Below are positions 45,688 through 64,000 of a stretch of DNA of 64,000 nt, one piece after another. The translations under genes were made by a program, and so were the position numbers. The notes under the pieces are model-generated. The model ran no database searches. It was given only the letters and a program-made list of their open reading frames with translations, and was not told the origin of the DNA. Every line of letters begins with the position of its first letter. Position 1 is the first letter of the stretch. The DNA is from Triparma columacea (lineage: Eukaryota; Sar; Bolidophyceae; Parmales; Triparmaceae), in NCBI GenBank assembly GCA_030267965.1, contig BRYA01000351.1:32873-96872 (forward strand). Direction: 5' to 3'.

Positions 45688-48600
45688 ATGAAGCCCCTAA
45701 TTGTCCTCTTCATTTCCAATCTTAAGTTTAAAGTCTCACGAACAAGGTCATTCAGTTTAGGAATGGAAACCTTTGAAAGTTCATTCCTCAAGGATCCCCG
45801 AACGGGAGTCTGCGACTGCTCAATAGCATGCAGCGATTTGCTGGGATTAGCGATGTGGAGGAAGGAGGGGAAGGATTGGAAAGTTGACCTCGGCGGTTTG
45901 TCGAGGGGAAAGGTTGAACAAAACTTCGGGTCTCCCGCGGCAATGTCGGGAGTAGTGTCACCTGAGGGGTCTCGATTGGGATCTCCGACCTATAGGATAA
46001 CCCTTAAGAGCTTCCTCCTCGCTCAGGCCACTGAAAAGTTCCTCAGGGAGCCCCTCGATGAGAGCCTCTCTTCTCCATTGTCCACCAACCGGCCTTCCAA
46101 GGAGGTTACGGCCAAGGTTTTAAAGATCATCCGGGAGTGGCATAGGATCGACGCGAAGGCCGGGGCTGCTCTCTCCACGAAGAACGCGCAGGCCTACTAC
46201 TCGGGGGTTGTCTGTACCAAGAACTGCTACGAAGTATGCACCAAGCTCAACGAGATCAGGGCCAGTGCTTTCGGGGGTTGCAACGAGGTTAAGAGGGGGA
46301 AGAGGGGGAGAAAGACGCAGGGAGAGGACATTTTCCTCTCCCCTAGTAAGGGGACGATGGGCGAGGATGAGGTGAGCGATTTTGGAGGAAAGGTTCGCAG
46401 CTGTGAGACAAACCCTAACACATCCCCCCCTCCCAGGCACTGCCGGAAACTGTCCGAGCTTCCATCACACCACCCTCGGATCGCCTCCCTGAAACGATCC
46501 GCACCGCTCGGGGTGGGTCAGACTACGGTCTCCCCCCAACGCCACTGTTCCTCAAGGCCAAGACCATAGACAATTACGACTCCGGCGAGGATTCGGAGAT
46601 ATCGCCCGGCGGGATTGGGGGGAGCATTCTGGCAACGTCAATCGTGAGAGGGAGCTACAGCGAGCATATCACGGGACTAGGGGACGCCCTCAGCTGCATG
46701 GAGAACAACGAGAACGCCCCCGAAGCCAAAGCAGCCGTGATAATTGAGGACAACGACGGCGCCGAGGAGAAGGTGAGAAAGGGTGAAGAACGAAGTCTTC
46801 CATTACTATCATTGTACACCGAGTCAACCGCTGTATAATTCTCACGCCTTATCCCATCCTCACAGGAGGTGGAAAAGAAAAAGATTTTGAGGCGGAAGAA
46901 GAAGACTTCGACCATGAAAAAGAAAATTCAGAGCGCCCAGCGGATAACTGTCTCATCCGAACGACCCGGAACGGCGCCGATCCCAACAAAGAAGAAGAAG
47001 AAGAAGAAGGCAAACAAAATTTCCTCTGACCCTATGGCCAACAATGTCCCCCCCCAAGCCCCCCCCCCTCCCTCCCCCCCGCCTCCCCCGAGGCCTGAAA
47101 CCCCCAAAGGGGCCGCGTCTCCAGCGACCTACGGCACTTCTCCCCAAAAGCCAAGCTCTCCCCCCCCGGCGATCAACAGAGACGCCGTGCTCAACCTCAA
47201 CAGGCTAGCGGAGTTACAGAGGAAGTTCGAGTACGAGGTCAAGCTTAGGGCCGACGCCGAGGCCAACTGCATGATCGCGTCGCGGACCGCCGCGAGCTTG
47301 ACCTTAGAGCTTAAGAGAGAGAAGGAGAAGGTCACGAAGGCTCAAACACAGGCATCCAAGGCCCAAACCTCCCTTCTCGCTGCCAACGAAAACCTCCTCT
47401 TGTCGAAGCAGCATAACAAGGAGTTCATGAGCGAGGTGAGTGCTATGGGAACGGTGAAGTCGAAGGCGAATTGTAATAAGACTTACAATAATGGCTAAAC
47501 TCCCTCCGTTTGCCGCGCATCCCATCCCCACCATCACAGGTAGAGATACTGAAGGAAAAGGTCAGGGACAACACCGGGAAGGCAGCCGCTGCTGAGGCGC
47601 TCCTGGAAGCTGAGAGGGAAAGGAACAAGGTCGCAAAGGCCCATAATTCGGAACTAAAGGCTGCCATTAGGAAGCTGGCGACGCTGAAGGAGACTGGAGA
47701 GTACACACCGCGGGTAAATGCAGCTATTAACGACACATCACCCCCACCAGTTGAGCTGCCCAAGGACACCGCCAACCTCCAACAGATCAAGCAGCTCAAG
47801 AACGAAAACATTTACCTGCGCAAACAGGTCTCTTCGGAAATCCAGTGTAAGAAGGAACTGCAGAAGGTGGTCGAGTCCCAAAACGAGAGGCTCCAGAGCA
47901 CCAACGTCACAATTCGAAACCTGGAGGGCAAGCTGAAGGCAGCTGAAAGCGCCGCCTCAATCTTCGATGAAGCCGGGGAGGAGGACAAGGAGAACCAGAG
48001 CTCAGGCAGCGGTAACAGCCAGCACCCCCTGGAGGTGGAAAACGAGAGCTTGAGGAGGGAGCTGAAGGAGGTGACGGATTGCTACCAAGCTTCGAGGAAG
48101 AATTTGGCCGTGACCCAGAAAGCGCTTGAGAATACCCGTGCCATTAATTCCAAGACGGAATCCGAAATGGGGATCCTCAACGCGCAGCTCGAGGAGACCA
48201 AGGGTGAGCTAGAGGGACAGGCCAAACACCACAGTGACATGGCCGCCCTTCTTGAAAACAAGGTCGAAGCGGCGGAGAGAAAGGCCGAAGGGGTGGAGAG
48301 GCACTACGAAGAGGTTCGAAAGGGGACAGAAGTGGACGGAAGAAAAAAGTTGGCGTGCTTTAGGATGTCCATGGCTGTCATGAGGATTGCGGAGGGAGGG
48401 ACGAGTGGCGACTGTCGCCTCCGGGAAGCCTTCTTTTCGTGGGCCTTCAAAAGTGCGAGCAAGAGGGGGGAGGAGATCAAGGAGGACGCAGAAATTGCAG
48501 CCGTGAAGGACAGGGAGGTCGCGAGGAAGGAGGTTGCGAGAGTTAAGAGGGAGGAAGAAAGAGGAGGTGAGTCTCAAGAGCGAGGAATGAATCCGCCCCG

Positions 48601-51217
48601 AATTATTCTCACCTATTTTCCCATCGCAACAGCTTCGGAAAAAATCGAAGCCGTCAAGAAGAAGGCCACTGACCACATGAACAAAATCAAGGAGGAGATG
48701 AAGAAGCTGCTGACGTCCAAAGACTCTGAGATTGCGCAACTCAAGGGGCTGGTGGAGAACCTCAACAGCAAGCTGAAGGTTGCAGGCGATGATAGGGAGA
48801 CCCTTAAGGGGAGAATCGCAGAGCTTCAGGTTCAGGTGAAGGCCGTAGACGCCGAAAGGGGGAGGGAGAAGAGAGAGAAGGAGGACACAAAGAGAAAGCT
48901 GGAGGACCAGCTTTCGGAGAAGGAGAAGTTATGCAGGGAGCTGGGGGGGAGGGTGGAAGAGACGGAGAGAAAGATGGCGGAGAGAGAGGAGAGTTTGAAT
49001 AGTAAAAACAGCGTTGCGATTGACAAGGCCCTGCTGGACCTCGAGAAGGCGTTGAGGGCGGAGCACGGGAAGGAGGTCTGCTGTATGGAGGAGAGGTGGA
49101 AGGAGGAGATGAAGGCGGAAGAGAGAAGGAGGTTCGAGGCGGAGGAGAGGGGCAGGAAGGAGGTCGAGAGGGTGGTCGAGGGAAAGGAGAAAGAGGCCAA
49201 GGAGGCCGAAGAGAGGTGGAAGGTCGCGTTGGAGGAGGTGAAAATAGCCGAAGCCGAGAGGAGGGACAGGGAGGTTGAGGAGGGAAGGAGGGAAGCGGGA
49301 AGAATGGTCAAGGATGCGGTGGAAATGAAGGAGAAGGAGTCCAAGGGAATGGTAGAGTTGGTGGCGAAGGAGTGGGAGGGCAAGATGGAGAAGGGTAGGG
49401 AGGAGCTGGAGACAGCGTGGAGGAGCAAAATCAGGGAGGTTGGGAGGGAGTGGGAGGAAGAGCTGAAGAAGCAGCTCGAGAAGACCGAGCTTGGCGAGAG
49501 GATGAAGCTCGGGGAGGAGAGGGCTAGGAGTGCGCGGGTCGCCCAGATGGCGAGGGAGGAAACGGAGGCCGCATGGAGTAGGAGAATGAGGGAAGAGGTT
49601 GATAAAACGGAGATGAGATTGAAGGGCGAGTTGAAGGAAGTGGAAGCGAGAGCTCTGAGGGAGAAGAAGGAGCTGGAGGAAGGGAAGAGGGCGGCGGTGA
49701 TGAGGGAGGCTGAGAAGTGGGAGAAAGCCCTCGGCGACGCTGTTGAGGCCGGGGAGAAGAGGAGGGTTGAGGAGGCGGAGAAGTTGAAGGGGGAATACGA
49801 GGCGAGGGGGGAGGAGGGGAGGAAGAGGGTCGCGGATGCTGCAAAGAAGGCAATCGAAGAGGCAAGGAGGAGATTTTTGGACTGCAAGGCGGAGATGGAG
49901 AGGAAGGCGGGGGAGGTGGAGGTCCTGGGCGGGGCCGTGGAGAGGTTGGAGGGAGAGCTGAAGGTCGCGAAGGAGGAGAAGGAGGAGGTGGAGGGGAGGG
50001 TTGTGGACATGATGGGGGATTTGGAGAGGATGGGGAGGAGGGAGAAGGTCAACATGGGCAGCGAGAGAAGGATGGAGGAGGAGATTAAGAAGCTGCAGGC
50101 TGAAGTTGAGGAGGAAAGGAACGAGGGGAAGAAGAAGTTCGCGGAGGGAGTGGCGAAAGGTTTGGAGGAGAGAAAGAGGGAGGCCAGGACGCTGGAGGAC
50201 AAACTGAAGGAGAAGGAAGTCGGGTGGGAGAATGAAAAAGCAACGTTGGTGGAGGGGTTGGAAGGCTGGAAGGAAAGGGGGAGGGTCTGGGGGGAGCAGG
50301 CCGAGGTGCTGGACAGGGAGATACTGGAGCTTAGGGGAGAGAGGGAGAAGATGATTGCTGACAACAAGGCGCTCGCAGAGGGCATGGGAAGGGCCAGGGC
50401 AGAGGCGGAGAGGTGGGAAGGGGAGAGGGAGGAAACGAGGAAGAAGTTGGCCAAGGTTAAGAAGGAGGGGGAGAGGGCGGTTAGGGAGGTCAGGGTGGAG
50501 ATGGGCGTTGAGATGGAGGAGAGGTTAAAGGAGGCAGTGGAGTTGGGTGTCAAGGAGACGAGCAGGAGGGTGGAGGCAGAGAAGGAGGGGAGGGTTAGGG
50601 CCGAAGAGAGATTTAGAATGGAAATGGAGAGATGGGAGGGGGAGAGGAGGGGTTTGGAGGGGAGGGTGGAGGAGGGGGAGAGGAGATTTGGGGAATCGGA
50701 GAGAACGTTGGGGAGGGTGGGGGTTTTGTTGGGTGTGTTGGGGGGGTTGGGGGGGTTAGGGGGGAGGGAAGAAGAGGAAGAGGAAGAGGAGGTGGAGGAC
50801 AGGGGGAGGAAATTGAGGGAGGAATACGATGGGTTGGTGAGAAAAATCCAGGAGAGGGTGGAGAAGGGGAGGGAGATAGGAGAGATGATCCAAGAATGCG
50901 AGAACAAAATCGCTCAGCATGGCAAGGACGGAGGGTCGTTGAGTCCCGGGGGCACCATGAGCCTGAGCCACGTCAAAATCAAGAGGAGGCTGAACGAGGA
51001 GCTAGAGGGCTTCCTCGTCGAGATCGACAAGAACAGAAAGATGGTCAAGAAAATGAACCTGGAAGTCGTCAAGCTTTTGGAGAGGAGAATTCAGGTCGAG
51101 GCCGTGGGGAGAGGAAGGGAGAGGAAGAGGGGAGAAAGCTTAGGAGAGAAGATGAAAAGGGTCGGAGAGGTCGTCAGGGAGTTGCGGGAGGTTGTGGTTG
51201 TGGAAAAAAAGAGTTAG
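45688..51217 (+). CDS. Very long coiled-coil protein, unknown function
   Basis: Five exons: 45688-46371, 46437-46772, 46866-47435, 47540-48566, 48633-51217; 1733 residues. The N-terminal ~230 residues look globular (ITLKSFLLAQATEKFL, VLKIIREWHRIDAKAG, Cys-containing YYSGVVCTKNCYEVC). A Lys-rich and proline-rich linker (KKKKKKKANK, PPPPSPPPPPRP) precedes continuous heptad-rich coiled coil from about 390 to the end, almost all Glu/Lys/Arg in the last 860 residues. This suggests a centrosomal, ciliary-rootlet or cytoskeletal scaffold; no named family is recognised. The fourth intron (48567-48632, 66 bp) has no stop and is in frame, so it can be read through. The start could also be the Met at 45763. 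The Glu/Lys bias makes long antisense frames, which are artefacts. Confidence 0.75.
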
Positions 51218-54623: not shown

Positions 54624-56031
54624 ATGAAAGCCTCTCTCCTCTTTCTTAGCCATTTATACGCAATAAATGGTTTAATAGTAAACCCAAATGGTTTAATGTG
54701 TAATCGTCAGTCTCGTAATGTACTTAATTCAGCTTTAAACTTCAAAAAAAGGCAAAAAAGTTGGCAATCCTCCACACAATCCTCCGACACCTCGCTTACA
54801 TTCACTCCAAAAATGGACACTATTCATCATCTGCATCACTTTAATATTCATAACGTACACATCGCTTCTACTACGCACATCACACATTCAAATGCTGCTT
54901 CAAATAGCGCACTATATGGCTCTAATTACCTTGATAGCCTTACACCTCCACCACAAATTGATATAGCTACAGTACCTAAGGTGAGAACAGAATGGGAAGG
55001 AGTAAGAGAAGGAGGAAGGGAAGAAGAAAGGGAAGAAGAAAGAAGAGAGGGAGAGCACCCGCTCAATGAAGGCCAATATTCAAGGATAGACCCAACCCCA
55101 ACCACGACACCCCCCCTACCACCGATACCCCCCCCACCACCGATACCCCCCCCACCAAACCCAACCTCCAAACCCTTCCAACCCCCACTCACCGCCTTCC
55201 ACCCCCCACCCCCCCTTCCCACTCTCTCTATCAAAACCGCCCATTAGCACCTTTTCTCCCTGTGCTTCCAATACCTGACAATAACCTTCCTCCTCAAGAT
55301 CCTCTTCACCCGTCTATACCCCCTCCTCCCCCCCTCCCTCCTCCCCCCCCTGACCTGGCTAACCTACGCCTTCCTAAGCCTCAAGAGCAGGACCTTCAGC
55401 CTCATGGACAACAGGAGGCCGGGGAAGAGAGAGAGGGGACAGCTAGGATGGTATGACAGGGAAATGCCAAAGGTGAGAGACACTCCTGACTTTGAGAACA
55501 TCGAGCCAGGAAAACTCGCTGAACACAAACACACCACAAACACACACTAACCAATCTACCCCCCTCCCCCCTCCCCCCCTGTCCTAGTGGACCCCCCCAG
55601 GTGTATTCTTCCCGATAATGTGGTGTTTGATAATCACCCCCCTCCGCGCAACCTCCTCCACCCTCCTCCATCTCTCTCTCCCCCCCCCCCTCGCCCTCTC
55701 CTACACCAAAGCCCTAATCCTCCACCTCTGCATCGGGGACATGTGGAACGCCATAAACAACGTCGAGGGAAGGATCGGACTGGCGTGCACGACCGTGCTG
55801 GCGGTTCTGGTGAGCGCGGGGAAGGCGGCGGGAGTTTATAAGGGATCGGGGGTTAAGGGGGCGGGGATTATTCTGGGGGCTACGCTGGGGTGGATTACGG
55901 TGGCGACGGGACTGGTTTGGAACACTTGGTGGATCAACAGGAGAGGACAGGAGGGGAGGAGGGACAGCCTTGTACCGATGAAAGTTAGGGGGGAGGAAAC
56001 TATGACCAAATTCGTTTGGGAGAAAAGGTAA
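54624..56031 (+). CDS. TspO/MBR-like multispan membrane protein with N-terminal leader
   Basis: Three phase-0 exons: 54624-54980, 55248-55472, 55588-56031; 341 residues. The C-terminal half shows the TspO/MBR pattern: WTPPGVFFPIMWCLI at the first-loop/TM junction, a small-residue-rich span, LCIGDMWNAINNVEGRIG, then spans CTTVLAVLVSAGKAAG and GIILGATLGWITVATGLVW. An extra span (FQYLTITFLLKILFTRLYPL) sits before it. TspO proteins bind tetrapyrroles and sterols in mitochondrial or plastid-derived membranes. The N-terminus from Met 54624 (MKASLLFLSHLYAING) looks like a signal peptide, then an Asn/Ser/His-rich stretch, compatible with plastid or ER routing. Met 54812 would remove it. Its start is 85 bp from the CFAP20-domain gene's split start codon. 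Confidence 0.72.
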
Positions 56032-57006
56032 AGGGGGGGGGGGACGGGGGAGAGGGGGCGGAAGGGGGGGAATCAGGGTTAACACTGAGTTTTACTGGAA
56101 AAAAAGTGGAGGGACTTTTTACAACGATAAGAACACTGGAGAGGAGATAGGACGGGGGAGAAGGACGAAGGGGGTAAATGTTGGGTCCTTGGGAAGGGTT
56201 GGGAGCGACTGATGGTTGAATAAGCTGTAAATTGAAGGTCGTTGGGGGAAAGAAAATATATAGGCTTTTAATGGCGATTTCAGCGCTTTGACCGAAAGTG
56301 AATGCGGGAGGGCACCGGGACAGCCCTGGGAGTTTAGTAAATGCAACAACCTTTGAACCACATTTTTCAACTTTGGAAAATAACCAAGCAAAGCGAAAAC
56401 TTAAGGTAAGGACGTACGGGGAGTGACCGCTGTTTATTAGTTGGCGCATTTAATGCAAAAGAAACACAAATTCGGCCGTGATTAGAAATATCAGAAGGCT
56501 CCCCCGAAACCAGTAAATTCCGAATCCATGGATTATTCATCCTTCATACGATTCCCGACGGGATTTTAGCTACACTCCCGGGCTTACTGTACCATACTCC
56601 CGGACTTACAGAGGTCCTTTGACGAATATTATCACCCTTTATCCCTCACCACCTCCCCCCCTTTCCCCTCCCGTCCTCAGCCAAAGTAAACCCCAAGAAT
56701 TAGCCCCTGTAAGAGCTTCGTTGAAGGTAAGAATGTGCATGGAGACCCAAGCTCGGGGGGTGCGAGGCGTAAATTGAGGAAGAAACTAGCGTAACGTAAA
56801 AATACAAGCTTCAGCTCAAATCCACCTTGGTGCCTCGACCAGGATGGTGGGGTTGGTTGACTGCACTGGAGTCAATCGTCGTATATTAATTAGCGACAAC
56901 TGTTGTTACCCCTCATCATCTCGTCACGACCAATAACGTTTCAAAAAACACCTCACTTATCCCCAAACCACCCTTCCACCTTTCAGCCCTCCCTCCCCTC
57001 TAGAGC
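56032..57006. other. Intergenic region, no gene recognised
   Basis: 975 bp. 56032-56170 is purine-rich; a short duplication ACTCCCGGGCTTAC / ACTCCCGGACTTAC occurs at about 56573-56608. Splice-like signals (CTTCGTTGAAGGTAAGAATG near 56716-56730; CTTTCAG near 56980) hint at a non-coding first exon for the START-domain gene, but nothing fixes it. A 149-codon minus-strand frame (56000-56449) has no protein-like features. Confidence 0.5.
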
Positions 57007-60000
57007 ATGAAAGTTAGCCCAATGCAGGAGGACGAGCAAGTCATCGCCGTAAACGACGGCGAGAGGGGCCTCACTGACCAAGAAGAGAATGTCGACGTCG
57101 AGAGCGAAGTAAACGAGGAGATTGTTGGTGCTCCTGACGATATTATTGAGTTGATCAATGACAATGATATGGAGAATGGACGGGTTTTTGGCGTCGACGA
57201 CCCTCCTGACGGCCTTGATGACAACAAACATTCGGTGGAGGAAAAAGCCGAGGGAAACAAAGCGTCCCTCGTAGGCATCGCCGGAGCCACCCAGACTGAT
57301 GAGGAGATTGACCGAGCTGCGCTAGAGGCGCTCACCAACATATTGAGGAACGAGCCACAAGATTACACCGAGGAGGAGAAGCACACAATCAGGAAGGGGG
57401 AGGAGTTCTACGAGAAGTGTAAGAAGGGAGAGAATTTTGACGATTTGAAGAGTCCTGATGAGAGGGTCAAGATGAAGCGAGTTCATGTCGATGGGGCAAG
57501 CAGTGGGACTGGTTTTGCCACAACTGTGGTTGATGCTAGTGTCGAGGAGTGTGCTGCAAGACAAATATCAGTATTGAACAGCAGAGAGACCGGAAAAGAT
57601 TTAAAGAAATGGGGACTGACTTTCTTAAAAACCATCAATGTGAACCCCCACACTCTCTACTACATCACAACAAGGGAACTAGGTCTCCCTGGGTTTGCTC
57701 CACGTGATGGGAGGAGTAAAGTTACCTGGTTCAAGCAACACGATGGCAAAGTCATTATTGATATTGCAGACACAGATGAGCTTCATAAAGACTTTGCAGT
57801 GAAGGCTAGGAATGTTTTAGTGAAGATCCATACAGTATGGGTATTTGAGACACTTGGCCCTATTGGAGGTGTGCCACAAACATCAGTCACTTTCACAACA
57901 AAAATGGACCTTGGTGGTGTTTTCTTCTCCTCTATTGTGAACAAGATTGCGCCAAGGTTTCTTGCACAGGTCTCAGACTTGAGAAAGAAGTTCGATAAGA
58001 GCAGAGATATTGATGGCTTTAAGCTGCTGCAGACAGTAGATATCATCAACAACGAGATCCAGGATTACACTGACGCTGAAGAGGCGCTAATTAGCAATGG
58101 CAAGAAGTTTTACATGGATTGCGTGGCAAGCAAGAAATTCAAGAATGTGAAGAGTCAAGATCCCAGGGTGAAGACTAAGTTGATTCATCTTGAGGGAGAA
58201 TCTCAAGGCATTGTGATATGTGAGGCTGTTGTTGATGCTTCACTTGCAGAATGTGTGGCATACGACTTTACCAAGGACAGCAGAAAGAGGCAAGCTGGCC
58301 TGAAAAATAAGAACATTGTCAAACAACATGTGAGGAGATTAAACAATCACTCGCAGCTCTATTTGCGAATCCAGAATTTTGGAGCTGGATTCTCTCTCAG
58401 GGAAGGACACAGCAAAATAATCTGGAAAAAGGAGGGAGATAAGGCATGGATTATCTACGAAGATACAACTGAGCTGATGGATGACATGCCACTTGGAAGA
58501 CGTAATATTCTAATTTCATTCCGGACAACTTGGTTGTTTGAAAGCATGGAGAACCGGGGGTCAATCAAACAAACACTTGCCTCTTATGCTTCAAGATACG
58601 ATATTAAGGGAGCTGTGCCGGTCTGGTTGGTGAACAAATTGGCTGTTAAAACAGTCCACAACATGATTGAATTGCGGAAGAAGTTTCACCAGAGTGATGA
58701 CAAGATTGACAGGGCTGCGCTGGAATACCTTGCAAATATCATCAAGAATGAGCCTCAAGATTATACCAAGGAGGAGGAGGAGGCAATTGGGAAGGGGAAG
58801 GAATTCTATGAAAAGTGCAAAGAGGGGAAGAACTTTGATGATTTGAAGAGTCCTGATGAGAGGGTAAAGGCAAAGTTTGTACATCTAGAAGGAGTCACAC
58901 TTGGAGTACTTCTTTGCGAAGCTGTTTTGGATGCACCTGTTGAAGAATGTACTGCATATGACTTTATCAAGGACAGCAGAAAGAGGCAAGCTGACCTGAA
59001 GGCTAAGAACATTGTCAAACAACATGTGAGGAGGATAAACAATCACTCGCAGCTCTATTTGCGAATCCAGAATTTTGGAGCTGGATTCTCTCTCAGGGAA
59101 GGACACAGCAAAATAATCTGGAAAAAGGAGGGAGATAAGGCATGGATTATCTATGAAGATACGACTGAGCTGATGGATGACATGCCACTTGGAAGACGTA
59201 ATGTCCTAATTTCATTCCGGACAACTTGGTTGTTTGAAAGCTTGGAGAAGGGGGGGCCAATCAAACAAACACGTGCCTCTTATGCTTCAAGATACAACAT
59301 TAAGGGAGCTGTGCCAGTCTGGTTGATGAATAGACTGGCAATTAAGACAGCCAGCAACATGATTCACATCAGAAAGAAGTTTGACAAGAGCCAAGAGATT
59401 GACGCCTTTAAGAGACAGCAGATCATTGCAAAGTTTGAGGAAATTGCAGTTGAGGGAGCACCAGGGATTGAAAGTCACTTCGACGAGATTGGTGGAGCTC
59501 AAGAGATAAGTAGTGCTTTGTCTGGACAGACCTTGATAAAGGCAGAGAAGGGAATGGGATGGGGGATGACTTCAATAAGTGTAAGAGCATCCCACAAGGA
59601 GGTTGCAGCGTTCTTCTGGGGCCTTAAAAGTGAAGCTGAATCCCAGCCTGAGATTCACAGAGTTAACAACAAGATACTTGTAGTCACAGTTGAACATGAA
59701 GGGCATCTCACAGCTGTAAGGTTCTCAGAGGCTGGCCAGATGAAGACAGACGTTGAAATGATGACTAGACATAAGGGTTTAGGAAAAGCTGCCAGCAAAC
59801 AGAGTGTAATTAAGCACCTGAGCATGGTAACTAATGCTGCTTACTACTTTGATAACCTTCTGAAGAGTGCAGAAGCAGGGGAGCAGGATGGGAGGAGGTT
59901 TGGAGAGCAGCTGATGGAGAGAGTGAAGAAAAGGATTGTTGGGGACAGTAAAGTAGAGGCCGTGAGGGACTTTATTGCTGCCAATAGGGCACTGAGAGAG

Positions 60001-63000
60001 ATTACAGAGCAGCATGGTTTCATGAGATCTCTGCTGTATGCTGTGGTCATGAACAAATTTAAAAGGAGAGCGACAAATGAGGGAGAAGATAATAGTGAGG
60101 AGGAAGCCAGGGGGTGGGAGATTGGGAGTGCAATGACAGCAGTCATGTTGACTACAGCAACTGCTGCTCATGCTGTTGATGAGTGGGCACATCAATTTAC
60201 TGAAGTGCAAGAAGTCATGAATGAACAAGAGTGGGTAAGGCCCATGCTTGAGGAGATTGCTACGAAACTATTTATGAAGTCTACCTTAGGCTTAAAGGCA
60301 AGGGTGACTGTTGGAGCTATTACTAGTATGACTGATTTGCTGACTGATGTGTATGTGACTTACATGCTTTGGAGTGATGAGAAGTATGGGTACTTTAAGG
60401 CATCTCTGGCAAGTTTGACAGTGTCAATTGGGATTCAAATGCTTGTTGTTTGGTTATCGAACAGAAAGTTGGGGATGAAGAGGGTGTTACGGGAGTGGAT
60501 TCCAATCTTACTTGGGTACAAGCCTGCAGTTGATGCTTATAGGGTAGCGACTGGAGCAAAGCAAGAGGTTGGGACTGATGCTGACCCAATGTTTGAGATG
60601 ACAATGATGAAAAGTGTTGAGATGTTTGCTGAGGCAATCCCTGGAGTGATTATCCAACTCATGGCTATAGCAACCAGTGACAAAGATGTTGGAACTACAG
60701 CATGGCTTTCAGTTGCAGTGTCAGCACTTACCACAGGCTTTGCCTCAGCAACAGTCAGTTATGATTTTGACACAGACCCTGCTAAGAGAGAAATGACACC
60801 AGACTTCTATGGATATATACCAGCAAAAGCAAGCAAGAGAACAGTAGTATTTGTGTCAATGTTGCTGTACACTGCAGGAATGCTTCTAATAAGGTGTACA
60901 ACAATAGTTCTTCTTGGGTTGATGGAGGGTAGTTGGGCCTTTTTCTACATTGGAGCAGACCTTGGTTTATACTTTTTGGTTAAGATATTGAGGGGAGACT
61001 TTTGGTACTGGGTACCATTTGGAGGAAACATAGAGATTGTGAGTAGCATTTTTGCCAGAGTGACAGTTAAGATCATTGTAGACTTCACTTCAAATGTGCA
61101 GTTTAGACATCCTAATGAAGTTGGGGGAGCCTATTGGTTGTTTGGTCTTTTGTTGACAATGGGAAGCCTACCAGTGTCAGTATATATAGCTTCACCTTAT
61201 GTTGATAAGAGAGCAATTGATATTGCGTCATCAATTGTGAAGGGTTTCATACCTATAACTACCCTATGCTTTGCTGTCTTCTTTTGGAACATTGAGAAGA
61301 AGTACTTGCACACCTTCTGGAGCACACAGAGATCAAAGGACGTATCAATGGCATATTTCCTTGAAGGAGAAAGTGATAAAATGAAGTTTGAGGTCTTTGC
61401 AAGCTCAAGACATCATTGGGTCGCAATTGAAGGCGAATTAAGAAAGTGGATTGAGTTGAACTGGGCTGAATGGGAAAGGGAGAAGCCAGAGTGGCTTACT
61501 GATGTGATAAAAGCAACAGTACCTGTAGACTTCATTCCAGGAGATGGAGATGCTAGAAGGAGAGAGGGTGTGAGAAGAGCAAGTGTTGATGCTGAAGCTG
61601 AACGTGGTCTAGCAGGTACTTTGAGAGCAAGTATTAGGAGAGCAAGTGTTAATTTGGATAACAGAGGCGCACTGATTGCTTCACATGCTGTGAATGATAC
61701 TACACAAGACTATGCTGATTTAGATCCTAAACAAATAGGAAAGTTGTTGGGTGAGCAACTGTTGGTTGCATTAAGTTTCAGGAAGAAGGGAGTTACAAAG
61801 GAGGAGGCAGTGAGATCATTTATGGTGAACAACTATATTCTGAGACAGGCTGCAGAGAAATATGTGTTTATCATACCAATGCTTGGCGCTATTGTCAAGA
61901 ACAAGCTGCGTGGGCTTAGGAAGGTAGAAGGTAGGGCTGCAGAGCTGGTGGAGAAGGATGGAAGGGAGATTGGGGAGTCTCTAGCGAGGAGTTTGGCAAT
62001 CAATACTCAGCCAGTTGCTGCTGTAGATGCCTTCATCTTAAATTTCCCTGCTCTACAGGAGCTTGATGAGGAATATGAATGGTTCAGACCTATGATTGAG
62101 AGAATTAGCTACAAGCTATTGGAGGAAGTTCCTTGGGGGTTGAAGTTGAGAGTCACAATTGGTGCTATAACTAGTATGACCGATTTAGTGACTGATGTGT
62201 ATGTGACGTACATGTTTTGGAGTGATGAGAAGTATGGGTACTTTAAGGCATCTCTGGCAAGTTTGGTAATGTCAATTGGGATGCAAATACTTGTTGTCTG
62301 GGGTCAGAACAGAAAGTTAGGGACGAAGAGGGTGCTGATGGAGTCCCTTCCTATTTTAATAGGTTTCAAACCTGCAGTTGATGCTTACAGGGTAGCAAAA
62401 GGAGAAAAGCAAGAGGCTGGACAAGCCATTGATGCACTGACAGAGTTAACTTTCATGAAAGTGATTGAGATGTTTGCTGAAGCCATACCTGGTGTAATCA
62501 TTCAACTTATGGCAATTGCAACTAGTGGTAACGAAGTTTCAAAAGCAGCCTGGTTATCACTCTCAGTTTCTGCCCTGACAACAGGCTTTGCATCAGCAAC
62601 TATTAGTTATGACTTTGACACTGACCCAGTGAAGAGAGAGCAAGTGCCTGACTTCTATGGGTATGTGCCTGCAAACCCCACCAAGAGATCTATTGTATTT
62701 GTTTCAATGACATGCTTTAGCGCATGTATGTTTTTGATAAGGTGCATGTCAATAGTTCTGTTAGGGCTACTTGGTGGTAGATGGGTCATTCTCTATGTTG
62801 GGGCTGACCTTGGTCTATACTTTCTTGTGAAGGTCTTAAGAGGAGACTTTTGGTATTGGATTCCTGTTGGAGGCAATGTAGAAGTAGTGAGTAGCATTGT
62901 AGCTAGAGTTCTCGTGAAGGTAGTCACAGACTTTACATCAATTGTGCAGTTTAGGCATCCTTATGAGCTTGGTGGAATGTATTGGCTGCTTGGCTTTGTT

Positions 63001-63603
63001 TTGACGATTGGAAGTCTCCCAGTAGCTATTATCCTAGCTGAAATAGAAGATGTTATCAAGGAGAGGCTTAAATTGGCATGGGCAGTAGTTATAATACTTA
63101 TACCATTCACTATGCTTTGTTTCGCAGCATTTTTCTTGAACACAGAGAAAAAATACTGGATAACCTTTTACAGTTTGGAAAGAGGGAAAGACTTAACTGT
63201 AAAAGGATTCAAGGAAGCTACAAATGACAAGCTGAAGGCATCTAAAGCATTCCGTCATTCTAGAAAACATTTAATTACAATCGAAGAGGAGGTTAAAGCT
63301 TGGGTAGAGGCTAACTGGGAGCAATGGGAGGAAGAGAAGCCAGAATGGTTTGATAAAGCAATGAGAGCTAGAGTACCAGTGGAATACATTCCAGGAGCAG
63401 GAGGTGCTAGAAGGAGAGAGAGTGCTAGGAGAGCAAGTGTCAATGATGCTGAGGGGGGTCTAGCAGGTGCTTTAAAAGCAGGTATTAGGAGAGCAAGTTT
63501 TGGAGGCGCTGATGTTGGAGATATTGTAGGTGTAGGAGGTGGGAAGGCTAAAGTAAGCAGTGTAGTGCCGATGGAAGATGAGGATAGGATTGGGCGTGAC
63601 TAA
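57007..63603 (+). CDS. START-domain / XK-related-like polytopic membrane fusion protein
   Basis: Intronless 2198-codon frame. After an acidic ~90-residue leader come three START-like lipid-binding repeats of about 230 residues (roughly 95-335, 336-565, 566-795), each beginning with EPQDYT-EEE-type and FYEKC helices and containing WLF/WVFE and IIDFR-like core strands. A fourth, diverged START-like domain covers about 797-970. Two copies of a multispan membrane module follow (about 1094-1430 and 1710-2050), each starting GAITSMTDLLTDVYVTYM and including EMFAEAIPGVIIQLMAIA, GFASATxSYDFDTDP and ADLGLYFLVKxLRGDFWYW. The TD-LxTDVYVxY and ExFxExxPG-IQL pattern reminds me of XK-related lipid scramblases; that link is tentative. 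Ser-rich RRASV sites end each module. Codons are A/T-richer than in neighbouring genes. The start is ATG 57007. Confidence 0.78.
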   Translation: MKVSPMQEDEQVIAVNDGERGLTDQEENVDVESEVNEEIVGAPDDIIELINDNDMENGRVFGVDDPPDGLDDNKHSVEEKAEGNKASLVGIAGATQTDEEIDRAALEALTNILRNEPQDYTEEEKHTIRKGEEFYEKCKKGENFDDLKSPDERVKMKRVHVDGASSGTGFATTVVDASVEECAARQISVLNSRETGKDLKKWGLTFLKTINVNPHTLYYITTRELGLPGFAPRDGRSKVTWFKQHDGKVIIDIADTDELHKDFAVKARNVLVKIHTVWVFETLGPIGGVPQTSVTFTTKMDLGGVFFSSIVNKIAPRFLAQVSDLRKKFDKSRDIDGFKLLQTVDIINNEIQDYTDAEEALISNGKKFYMDCVASKKFKNVKSQDPRVKTKLIHLEGESQGIVICEAVVDASLAECVAYDFTKDSRKRQAGLKNKNIVKQHVRRLNNHSQLYLRIQNFGAGFSLREGHSKIIWKKEGDKAWIIYEDTTELMDDMPLGRRNILISFRTTWLFESMENRGSIKQTLASYASRYDIKGAVPVWLVNKLAVKTVHNMIELRKKFHQSDDKIDRAALEYLANIIKNEPQDYTKEEEEAIGKGKEFYEKCKEGKNFDDLKSPDERVKAKFVHLEGVTLGVLLCEAVLDAPVEECTAYDFIKDSRKRQADLKAKNIVKQHVRRINNHSQLYLRIQNFGAGFSLREGHSKIIWKKEGDKAWIIYEDTTELMDDMPLGRRNVLISFRTTWLFESLEKGGPIKQTRASYASRYNIKGAVPVWLMNRLAIKTASNMIHIRKKFDKSQEIDAFKRQQIIAKFEEIAVEGAPGIESHFDEIGGAQEISSALSGQTLIKAEKGMGWGMTSISVRASHKEVAAFFWGLKSEAESQPEIHRVNNKILVVTVEHEGHLTAVRFSEAGQMKTDVEMMTRHKGLGKAASKQSVIKHLSMVTNAAYYFDNLLKSAEAGEQDGRRFGEQLMERVKKRIVGDSKVEAVRDFIAANRALREITEQHGFMRSLLYAVVMNKFKRRATNEGEDNSEEEARGWEIGSAMTAVMLTTATAAHAVDEWAHQFTEVQEVMNEQEWVRPMLEEIATKLFMKSTLGLKARVTVGAITSMTDLLTDVYVTYMLWSDEKYGYFKASLASLTVSIGIQMLVVWLSNRKLGMKRVLREWIPILLGYKPAVDAYRVATGAKQEVGTDADPMFEMTMMKSVEMFAEAIPGVIIQLMAIATSDKDVGTTAWLSVAVSALTTGFASATVSYDFDTDPAKREMTPDFYGYIPAKASKRTVVFVSMLLYTAGMLLIRCTTIVLLGLMEGSWAFFYIGADLGLYFLVKILRGDFWYWVPFGGNIEIVSSIFARVTVKIIVDFTSNVQFRHPNEVGGAYWLFGLLLTMGSLPVSVYIASPYVDKRAIDIASSIVKGFIPITTLCFAVFFWNIEKKYLHTFWSTQRSKDVSMAYFLEGESDKMKFEVFASSRHHWVAIEGELRKWIELNWAEWEREKPEWLTDVIKATVPVDFIPGDGDARRREGVRRASVDAEAERGLAGTLRASIRRASVNLDNRGALIASHAVNDTTQDYADLDPKQIGKLLGEQLLVALSFRKKGVTKEEAVRSFMVNNYILRQAAEKYVFIIPMLGAIVKNKLRGLRKVEGRAAELVEKDGREIGESLARSLAINTQPVAAVDAFILNFPALQELDEEYEWFRPMIERISYKLLEEVPWGLKLRVTIGAITSMTDLVTDVYVTYMFWSDEKYGYFKASLASLVMSIGMQILVVWGQNRKLGTKRVLMESLPILIGFKPAVDAYRVAKGEKQEAGQAIDALTELTFMKVIEMFAEAIPGVIIQLMAIATSGNEVSKAAWLSLSVSALTTGFASATISYDFDTDPVKREQVPDFYGYVPANPTKRSIVFVSMTCFSACMFLIRCMSIVLLGLLGGRWVILYVGADLGLYFLVKVLRGDFWYWIPVGGNVEVVSSIVARVLVKVVTDFTSIVQFRHPYELGGMYWLLGFVLTIGSLPVAIILAEIEDVIKERLKLAWAVVIILIPFTMLCFAAFFLNTEKKYWITFYSLERGKDLTVKGFKEATNDKLKASKAFRHSRKHLITIEEEVKAWVEANWEQWEEEKPEWFDKAMRARVPVEYIPGAGGARRRESARRASVNDAEGGLAGALKAGIRRASFGGADVGDIVGVGGGKAKVSSVVPMEDEDRIGRD
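58280..59340. repeat. Homogenised START-repeat segments, 696-bp period
   Basis: START repeats 2 and 3 are nearly identical at the DNA level over about 58274-58560 versus 58970-59256, an offset of 696 bp, but clearly diverged on either side. Only scattered third-position differences (for example TCTACGA/TCTATGA, ACAACT/ACGACT) are seen within the core. Confidence 0.85.
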
Positions 63604-64000
63604 TAGGGCAGCAACATTTGTAGGAAAAATTGATTTGATTTGTTATTGTTGCGATATTTTGAAAGTGTTAGGGTTGTTTGGTGTGGGGGTGGGAGTTTTA
63701 AAGTGGTTTGTGAGTATTTTAGAAGTGTGGTTTATGTATTTTGAAAGTGTTAAAGTGGTTTGTGAGTATTGAGGAAGTGTTATAGATGTGTGTGTAGTTT
63801 TAAAGAGTTGTGGCAGTGTTATAGTGTTAGAAATTATGGGGTTTTGAAGAATTGTGGAATTGTTAATGTGGTTTGTGAGTATAATGGAAGTTTAGTAGAT
63901 GTGTAAGGGGAGAAATAAAAGAGTGTTAGTGTAGTTGTGGAGAGGATATAGAGAATTTAAGGGGAGAGAGTAGAGGAGAGGAGGGTATAAGGTGGAATAA
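63604..64000. other. 3' flank with GTGGTTTGTGAGTAT repeats
   Basis: 397 bp after tandem stops (TAATAG), rich in G and T on the plus strand. The element GTGGTTTGTGAGTAT occurs at about 63703-63717, 63755-63769 and 63868-63882, with GAAAGTGTTA-type units between. A 64-codon frame here is repeat-derived. The 3' end of the START gene's transcript must lie in it; no poly(A) signal is certain (an AATAAA occurs near 63914). Confidence 0.6.

Follow-up and report, generated by a model that had tools for sequence, protein, structure and literature searches.

A START-XKR gene of Triparma columacea and its many copies close to chromosome ends

Does a single gene of Triparma columacea, a silica-plated marine alga of the sister group of the diatoms, join START lipid-transfer modules to scramblase-type membrane modules of the XK-related (XKR) family, and is it the only gene of this kind in the genome? 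We addressed this question for a long reading frame close to the right end of a 64,000-nt stretch of DNA (the window). All of the features of the window described below lie on its plus strand.

Domain composition of the reading frame

In agreement with a preliminary description of this DNA, positions 57007..63603 form a single frame, which starts with ATG and encodes 2,198 aa uninterrupted by a stop codon. The order of its domains is START-START-START-(START-like)-helical-XKR-linker-XKR. Comparison of the ORF with Pfam gave 41.3 bits for XK-related (PF09815; above the cut-off of 24.8) and 21.9 bits for START (PF01852; cut-off 22). These scores, together with the number of occurrences of a family-derived motif pattern in the T. 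columacea genome (508 vs 0 for the reversed control), indicate that the domain similarity is beyond chance. The ORF matches seven Pfam families at E ≤1, none of which is a chorein family; an Rfam search of positions 55000-64000 gave no family, and no tRNA genes were found in the window.

Three START modules were delimited: A (residues 100-349; 57304..58053) and B (residues 335-568; 58009..58710), with hmmsearch scores of 438 and 449 bits, respectively, against a module profile built from modules A-C themselves, and C (residues 566-815; 58702..59451). Their mutual identity is 35-72% (72% for B vs C). The preliminary description had counted three to four such domains; three of them were found, whereas the fourth stretch, D (residues 816-985; 59452..59961), is short and uncertain, since its alignment in the START register is weak (hhalign E 0.06, probability 0.9%) and BLAST gave no significant similarity to modules A-C. 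Single START modules scored weakly against Pfam, six out of 28 reaching E 0.01, and the module profile retrieved StAR from the PDB with an E of 2e-4. The predicted structure of module C, folded with 11 extra residues, has a pLDDT of 89.7, and its top PDB matches are StAR, STARD13 and STARD10, with CERT slightly lower. According to this model, module C has the helix-grip START fold that had been expected for the first part of the protein.

The two membrane modules (module 1, residues 1091-1492, 60277..61482, 848 bits by hmmsearch; module 2, residues 1707-2110, 62125..63336) are 65% identical across 398 residues, as would be expected from the duplication proposed earlier. Both of the repeats named in support of that proposal are present: GAITSMTDL[LV]TDVYVTYM at residues 1103 (GAITSMTDLLTDVYVTYM, 60313..60366) and 1719 (GAITSMTDLVTDVYVTYM, 62161..62214), and EMFAEAIPGVIIQLMAIA at residues 1205 and 1821 (the latter copy at 62467..62520).

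The structure of module 2 was predicted within a folded 499-aa piece (pLDDT 83.3). The sole clear relatives of the model in the PDB are XKR9, XKR4 and XKR8 (10-15% identity), which argues for an XKR fold in this module and against a non-lipid transporter. In a set of 43 membrane modules (A1), 30 match Pfam XK-related at E 0.01. When the PDB was searched by sequence, the A1 profile reached a solved XKR (7p14) at E 0.7 only, amid unrelated matches, and neither a further profile (A3) nor the whole ORF (by phmmer) gave a match. The link between the module and the solved XKR proteins is therefore made by fold comparison, the sequence profiles having given no significant match.

Six residues of XKR8 are described as required for scrambling (PMC8500837). 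Five of them have counterparts at the same spacing, the sixth, R183, being left out of the mapping. The positions of D26 and D30, placed from the point at which the VIA alignment begins (model 68 = XKR8 7, assumed ungapped), correspond to D1110 and D1114 in module 1 and to D1726 and D1730 in module 2, and both are D in 43/43 aligned sequences of A1. The counterparts of K134, E137 and E141 were placed by spacing: the first is K in 42 sequences and R in one, and the other two (E1821 and E1825 in module 2) are E in 43/43.

The earlier reading of the frame as START plus XKR-type is thus supported, and from it we infer lipid transfer and scramblase activity of the protein. The combination of both parts in a single protein also occurs in other stramenopiles (T. 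laevis and Tetraparma gracilis).

Copies of the gene and their flanks

A 337-aa piece of XKR module 1 was found in at least 118 other places, with 80-86% aa identity (best 119 of 744 candidates). Internal stops were absent from 118 of these 119 matched stretches, and from 135 of 136 in a second family search. Open frames of at least 1,000 codons were present in 113 of the same 119; the six copies in shorter frames may be broken. Relatives were also sought in viral contigs, where none of 39 pattern matches was confirmed by tblastn.

The family proteins contain one to three XKR modules, located behind START domains. In the XKR module tree, several deep branches of which are long and unsure, the positions mix, which does not support an ancient duplication into fixed positions 1 and 2. 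Mean pairwise aa identity among the copies is 0.50 for START C (minimum 0.09) vs 0.77 for XKR1, the low START value resulting in part from the alignment of different module compositions. The family is under purifying selection (dN/dS about 0.3). Positive selection on START was considered and was not seen, the dN/dS of this part being 0.31-0.35.

The gene is preceded by a conserved 5′ block, a promoter/leader region (56186..57006), the DNA of which recurs in at least 39 further places with 83-90% identity; the copies are about 630-820 bp long and end at or close to the ATG (best 40 of 89 candidates). The block has an edge near 56186, the 786 bases further left matching themselves only.

The stop codon is followed, up to the end of the contig, by a cytosine-poor 3′ flank (63604..64000; 1.3% C, GC skew 0.93), which is common to other contig ends and was found in at least 39 other places, some of them partial, with 72-94% identity (best 40 of 281 candidates). 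On contigs C427, C378 and C76 the same flank (90-94% identical) leads into TTAGGG arrays. The right end of the window is the end of its contig (G000:C336:96872), and a TTAGGG array is absent there and from the first 8,600 bases at the left of this contig. Since the flank reaches arrays on the three other contigs, we infer that the window ends at a chromosome end.

Position and orientation at chromosome ends

A family gene is located at 27 of the 35 telomere ends found in C1-C122 by a ten-unit pattern, with which arrays of <60 bp are missed. It is missing, among the best candidates, at the starts of C53, C68, C70, C84 and C109 and at the ends of C71, C77 and C98. Analysis of the first 100 motif modules revealed that 90 point outward within 10 kb of an end; nine are separated by >10 kb from the end that lies ahead of them, and one has no assignable distance. 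Because of these eight ends and nine distant modules, a telomeric position is not required.

Against the 90 outward modules, one inward-pointing module is known (C105:6238). Minus-strand modules on C9, C76 and C118 possibly point inward near an end, and with them the ratio would still be 90 to 4. In a sample of every tenth contig (30 readable ends), a weak inward match (31%) was found at the end of C35. Many of the copies are the last gene in front of the telomere and face it. The many copies, their proximity to telomeres and their fixed orientation identify a chromosome-end multigene family, which is not visible from the window alone.

The arrays at the 12 ends read are 60-69 bp long, run TTAGGG outward, stop with the contig and follow differing junctions. 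On three contigs there is an array at either end, and C22 has an internal one, about 0.6 kb in. A search pattern that required a base other than G ahead of the array gave five matches and was discarded, since a G precedes the array at the 12 ends read.

Proposed mechanism and alternative explanations

The explanation that we prefer, and to which we would give an even chance, is that the gene is a member of a chromosome-end multigene family whose START array and XKR modules act as a one-chain lipid mover. In the putative topology, the START array would remove lipid monomers from the cytosolic leaflet of the protein's own membrane, or supply that leaflet with them, and the XKR modules would allow lipid to pass to the other leaflet, so that the transfer would cause no area imbalance. 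The protein would then unite in one chain what the VPS13A-XK and ATG2-scramblase partnerships divide between two proteins, and might be useful for fast membrane growth or remodelling, e.g. of phagocytic cups in a predicted phago-mixotroph. The shared 5′ block and the shared 3′ half, with the more variable START part between them, may constitute a cassette, the form of which would allow chromosome-end recombination to multiply it and shuffle the START part. The mechanism gives no account of the two or three scramblase-type modules per chain.

A broader version is more tentative, and we hold it to be possible rather than probable. The genome would be divided among a few hundred linear chromosomes, each ~70-130 kb long, with an outward START-XKR gene last before TTAGGG at most ends. 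The cassette, in which an exchangeable START array and a constant scramblase half are framed by the conserved 5′ block and the C-depleted 3′ flank, would serve at the chromosome ends of this free-living, photosynthetic eukaryote to diversify a machine that moves lipids, and not surface antigens. Should the small contigs that have a telomere at each end prove typical, this would be among the most subdivided nuclear genomes outside ciliate macronuclei, and published assemblies would show it as a low N50 only. The N50 is itself no proof of chromosome size, since that of the T. retinervis assembly is 8.2 kb. A karyotype of this kind may perhaps occur in other Triparma too.

Yeast Y′ elements spread between chromosome ends by recombination. 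A telomere-near gene could likewise have been copied from end to end, its copy number being without functional meaning, which we consider rather unlikely. The common 3′ flank, the 5′ block with its edge, the six short frames and the XKR modules that are not cleanly sorted by chain position, as exchange predicts, fit such amplification, whereas the prevalence of stop-free stretches and long frames, the low dN/dS and the invariant scrambling-path residues do not. Moreover, it accounts for the spread and not for the protein, and is compatible with the one-chain lipid mover.

It is also conceivable, but in our judgement unlikely, that the START array senses a ligand and thereby gates the XKR part, so that a lipid or steroid cue leads to phosphatidylserine exposure (e.g. 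in cell death, recognition or defence); with their variable START parts, the genes at chromosome ends would then form a repertoire of sensors with a constant output module. The var and VSG genes, with their chromosome-end location, provide a precedent. Repertoires with a constant output are often located there (PMC11739655), and XKR8 is described as a gated scramblase, switched by caspase or kinase (PMC8500837). The greater variability of START compared with XKR1 points in the same direction, but it derives partly from the unequal module compositions aligned, and a START dN/dS below 1 indicates that there is, on average, no diversifying selection on this part.

The demonstrated activity of XKR family members varies, and a fold alone does not show function. 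The XKR modules might thus anchor the START array in the membrane, or act as its receptor, without scrambling; this is quite improbable, as the five mapped scrambling-path residues (R183 left out) keep their chemistry, and an anchor needs no such invariance.

Finally, contigs that break in repeats could collect a repeated family at their ends, next to arrays that are possibly interstitial, as might be suspected from the Platanus assembly of 1,858 scaffolds (PMC10328945), from short arrays ending with the contig, which a k-mer assembler would produce at any long repeat, and from the array inside C22, yet such an artefact is very improbable, because repeat breakage has no orientation, all 12 ends read run TTAGGG outward after different junctions, three contigs have arrays at both ends, and interstitial arrays would require very many tail-to-tail fusions.

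Comparison with known systems

The START-XKR protein differs from the XKR scramblases (PF09815; XKR4, XKR8-basigin, XKR9 and XK) in having two or three modules per chain behind START, and the solved members share only 10-15% identity with module 2. With the START lipid transfer proteins (StAR, CERT and STARD4; PF01852) it would, according to the model of module C, have the helix-grip fold in common, but here three such modules stand in tandem on an integral membrane protein of scramblase type, and their sequences are close to or under the Pfam cut-off.

In the VPS13A-XK and ATG2-scramblase systems, cytosolic lipid transfer is coupled with leaflet equilibration, in the case of VPS13A via an XK-family scramblase (PMC9436381, PMC8978259). 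The START-XKR protein would share this principle; however, those systems consist of two proteins binding each other, whereas here START is part of the same chain and there is no chorein-type bridge. A chain with both kinds of module would be a natural test object for the question of whether lipid transfer proteins need leaflet equilibration in cis, which these papers address with separate partners, e.g. VPS13A and XK (PMC9436381, PMC8978259).

In Parmales, START belongs to the domains with the highest enrichment; the number of its genes, multi-domain forms included, reaches 141 in Tetraparma gracilis (Ban et al. 2023, PMC10328945). The main text of that paper contains no mention of XK-related or telomer, and the START-XKR fusion may stand in its supplements. 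In the open-licence PMC literature we found no paper combining Bolidophyceae with telomeres, none, by title, on XK-related with START domain or subtelomeres, no mention of scramblase in papers on Triparma or Bolidomonas, and no Triparma among the matches listed for karyotypes.

It is mainly from parasites and yeasts that chromosome-end gene families are known, and immune evasion or niche adaptation is the explanation given for them. A family of hundreds of copies, composed of lipid-handling parts, in the sister group of the diatoms lies outside this frame. VSG, var and Y′ elements are telomere-adjacent and present in many copies, and their more variable part is enclosed by conserved flanks; the START-XKR family has these features too. 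In contrast to those elements, the copies described here belong to a free-living alga and encode membrane lipid proteins, with no evidence of antigenic variation, and they are located at 27 of the 35 telomere ends examined, on what are apparently very small chromosomes.

START modules and a duplicated XKR-like module in one frame

The START-XKR gene of the window (57007-63603, plus strand) consists of one frame, as the preliminary description had stated, and this runs uninterrupted for 2,198 codons. Comparison with Pfam gave 41.3 bits for XK-related (cut-off 24.8), in two stretches, and 21.9 bits for START (cut-off 22). The proposed duplication of the membrane module was borne out, the two copies being 65% identical across 398 residues. 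Three to four START-like domains had been claimed: a START-module profile search recovered three, namely A (residues 100-349), B (335-568) and C (566-815), while the fourth, a shorter START-like stretch D (816-985), aligned in register with the START profile only weakly, at E 0.06. Modules B and C share 72% identity, and A is 35-44% identical to them. These observations confirm the presence of START modules and a duplicated XKR-like module in a single frame. The interpretation as START-XKR is supported by fold, residues and architecture, and we infer a function in lipid handling.

Of 20 larger ORFs scanned in window 1-55247, 14 are ordinary-looking and match Pfam at 1e-5 (GH30, DAO, methyltransferase 7, Glu dehydrogenase, M20 peptidase, AAA, SAP, FH2/TPR, kinase, Atg22-like, Ras, HOOK, aminotransferase V and ATP synthase c). 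Two long frames overlap there on opposite strands: 47510-51217 (plus; 1,235 codons), for which a Pfam search gave no match, and 48832-50907 (minus; 691 codons).

Residues of the scrambling path

The XKR8 mutants D26A, D30A, K134A, E137A, E141A and R183A are described as expressed and localised, yet showing little PtdSer exposure (PMC8500837). We mapped XKR8 D26, D30, D129, K134, E137 and E141, leaving out R183, onto the predicted structure of a 499-aa piece holding XKR module 2. The VIA alignment begins at model 68, equivalent to XKR8 residue 7, and places D26 and D30 at model 87 and 91 if the first helix is ungapped. The D129-K134-E137-E141 spacing recurs at model 174, 179, 182 and 186. Among 43 aligned sequences, positions 87 and 91 are always D and positions 182 and 186 always E, position 174 is E in 42 and V in one, and position 179 is K in 42 and R in one. 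Module 1 carries the same residues at every covered position in 19-21 of 30 rows from its own genome (one K as R), the rest being gaps.

Copy number, location and orientation

The main new points are the high copy number of the family, its location at chromosome ends with fixed orientation, and evidence that the chromosomes are very small. Homologues from T. columacea show 50-69% identity. A 337-aa query from XKR module 1 gave 744 initial candidates; 119 of these were scored and all 119 matched, with identities of 80-86% (self-match excluded); a single match contains an internal stop, and 113 lie in open frames of at least 1,000 codons. The lower coordinate of every minus-strand match in this set is at most 6.1 kb from the contig start.

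The back-translated motif RHP-x-E-x-GG occurs 508 times in the genome (control, 0). Position and orientation were tallied for the first 100 occurrences (contigs C1-C122): 90 modules are no more than 10 kb from the contig end that they face, nine are more distant, and one is on a contig without a length figure. One of the nine (C105:6238) faces inward at less than 10 kb from an end; three of them have a known distance to one contig end only. The ratio of outward to inward modules is 90 to 1 (p 7e-26). With approx. 1.47 modules per locus in C1-C122, a rough extrapolation gives about 345 loci.

A minority of family modules are interior (C1:23434, C8:38481, C15:43122, C61:30584 and C62:38797); these are possible donors or older copies. 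The two top Pfam XK-related scores of the genome, at C528:27823-28311 and C470:4815-5282, fall in shorter frames (609 and 640 codons), perhaps stand-alone XKR genes.

Telomere arrays at contig ends

The pattern (TTAGGG)3, with at most one extra base between units, gave 618 + 688 occurrences (control, 4 + 5), and the ten-unit pattern 83 + 103 (control, 0), of which 100 were examined (C2-C348). In all 12 contig ends read, an array of 60-69 bp begins after G and reaches the end; arrays beginning after A or T were found at five ends.

Contigs C1-C122 contain at least 35 telomere ends, omitting an array 0.6 kb inside C22. An outward-strand family gene was found at 27 of these 35, in 24 cases via the motif and in three (C34, C52 and C115) via other searches. 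Among the motif hits and the best candidates scored in the other searches, no family gene was seen at the remaining eight, i.e. the starts of C53, C68, C70, C84 and C109 and the ends of C71, C77 and C98.

In a separate sample (both ends of every tenth contig, C5-C185), 30 of 38 ends were readable, two of them partly. An outward XKR match was present at eight of the 30, including all five telomere ends; one further end matched outward over residues 1-116 alone, and another had a weak match pointing inward.

Chromosome size

The published T. columacea assembly is reported as 43.0 Mb in 1,858 scaffolds, with an N50 of 63.5 kb (PMC10328945); the genome analysed here comprises 789 contigs (37.85 Mb). 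Among the ten-unit matches examined, arrays occur at both ends of C70 (75,484 bp), C71 (84,296 bp) and C75 (67,733 bp), with an outward gene at each end of C75 and at one end of C70 and C71. Twelve contigs of 67-94 kb in C1-C122 bear signs of a chromosome end, either an array or an outward gene, on both sides, and C23, for which there is no length figure, is a possible thirteenth. Both ends of the window's contig (96,872 bp) carry an outward gene, and neither carries an array. The family member at its start (C336:1-8600), whose open frame spans 2,865 codons, has three XKR modules.

The lengths of every tenth contig (n=79) average 46.3 kb and reach 100.8 kb at most, where an exponential of equal mean above 10 kb predicts a maximum of approx. 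190 kb (p 0.001). The longest contig among those with length read is 129,512 bp. By two crude extrapolations, the chromosomes would number about 240 (at 160 kb) or 390 (at 98 kb). The N50 of four other Triparma assemblies, given as 73-83 kb (PMC10328945), is compatible with small chromosomes; neither these values nor the 8.2 kb of T. retinervis constitute proof.

Flanking sequences and selection

A stretch of about 630-820 bp in front of the ATG recurs with 83-90% identity at 39 further sites, 40 out of 89 candidates having been scored, and the 786 bases to the left of this block gave only a self-match in the genome search. The 397 bp past the stop recur at 39 other places with 72-94% identity, some partial (40 of 281 candidates scored).

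Between these two flanks, START C has a mean pairwise amino acid identity of 0.50 (up to 30 rows), stretch D one of 0.70, the helical part 0.78 and XKR1 0.77, the START values being depressed where differing modules were aligned. Median dN/dS, excluding pairs with saturated pS, is 0.31 for START C (94/153 pairs), 0.35 for stretch D (134/171), 0.21 for the helical part (169/171) and 0.27 for XKR1 (435/435). XKR modules did not sort by chain position in a 50-row tree.

GC skew of the coding strand is 0.18 where the gene begins and rises to 0.93 past the stop, where C accounts for 1.3%. At ten other ends, flank GC skew is 0.58-0.92 in nine and 0.14 in one; an eleventh was too short to be counted. 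GC content falls from about 0.53 over the first 56 kb to 0.36 near the contig end (window 57000-64000). The coding strand, here nearly devoid of C, ends in TTAGGG in other copies. Cytosine depletion could stem from transcription, or from deamination of an exposed single-stranded G-strand.

Relatives

T. columacea is a parmalean (Bolidophyceae), and diatoms are the sister group of Parmales. The module search found 305 proteins, with sources mostly jgi and ena among the 120 matches listed. In T. laevis (four proteins) and Tetraparma gracilis (one protein), START modules occur together with an XKR module. In a Bolidomonas transcript (P0023) the XKR module is preceded by a different N-terminal part, and an ena protein (P0019) has three XKR modules and no START-module match. 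No relative was detected in the viral contigs searched. Relatives also occur among transcript-derived sequences (MMETSP, EukProt), which suggests their transcription. The TrCOL gene models P0005 and P0013 stop within an XKR module and are shorter than the genomic family frames on C8 and C225; the family may therefore be under-annotated.

Possible role of the START-XKR protein

Since the chain ends of XKR proteins are cytosolic, the START domains would lie on the cytosolic side. Phagocytosis may be guessed at as a use of the protein, because phago-mixotrophy is predicted and START proteins are described as acting in Entamoeba phagocytosis.

The lipid transfer protein VPS13A is reported to partner XK, which scrambles lipids; transfer works on the cytosolic leaflet, so that a scramblase is needed for equilibration (PMC9436381, PMC8978259). 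With its START array joined to XKR modules, the present protein would probably combine lipid transfer and leaflet equilibration in a single chain.
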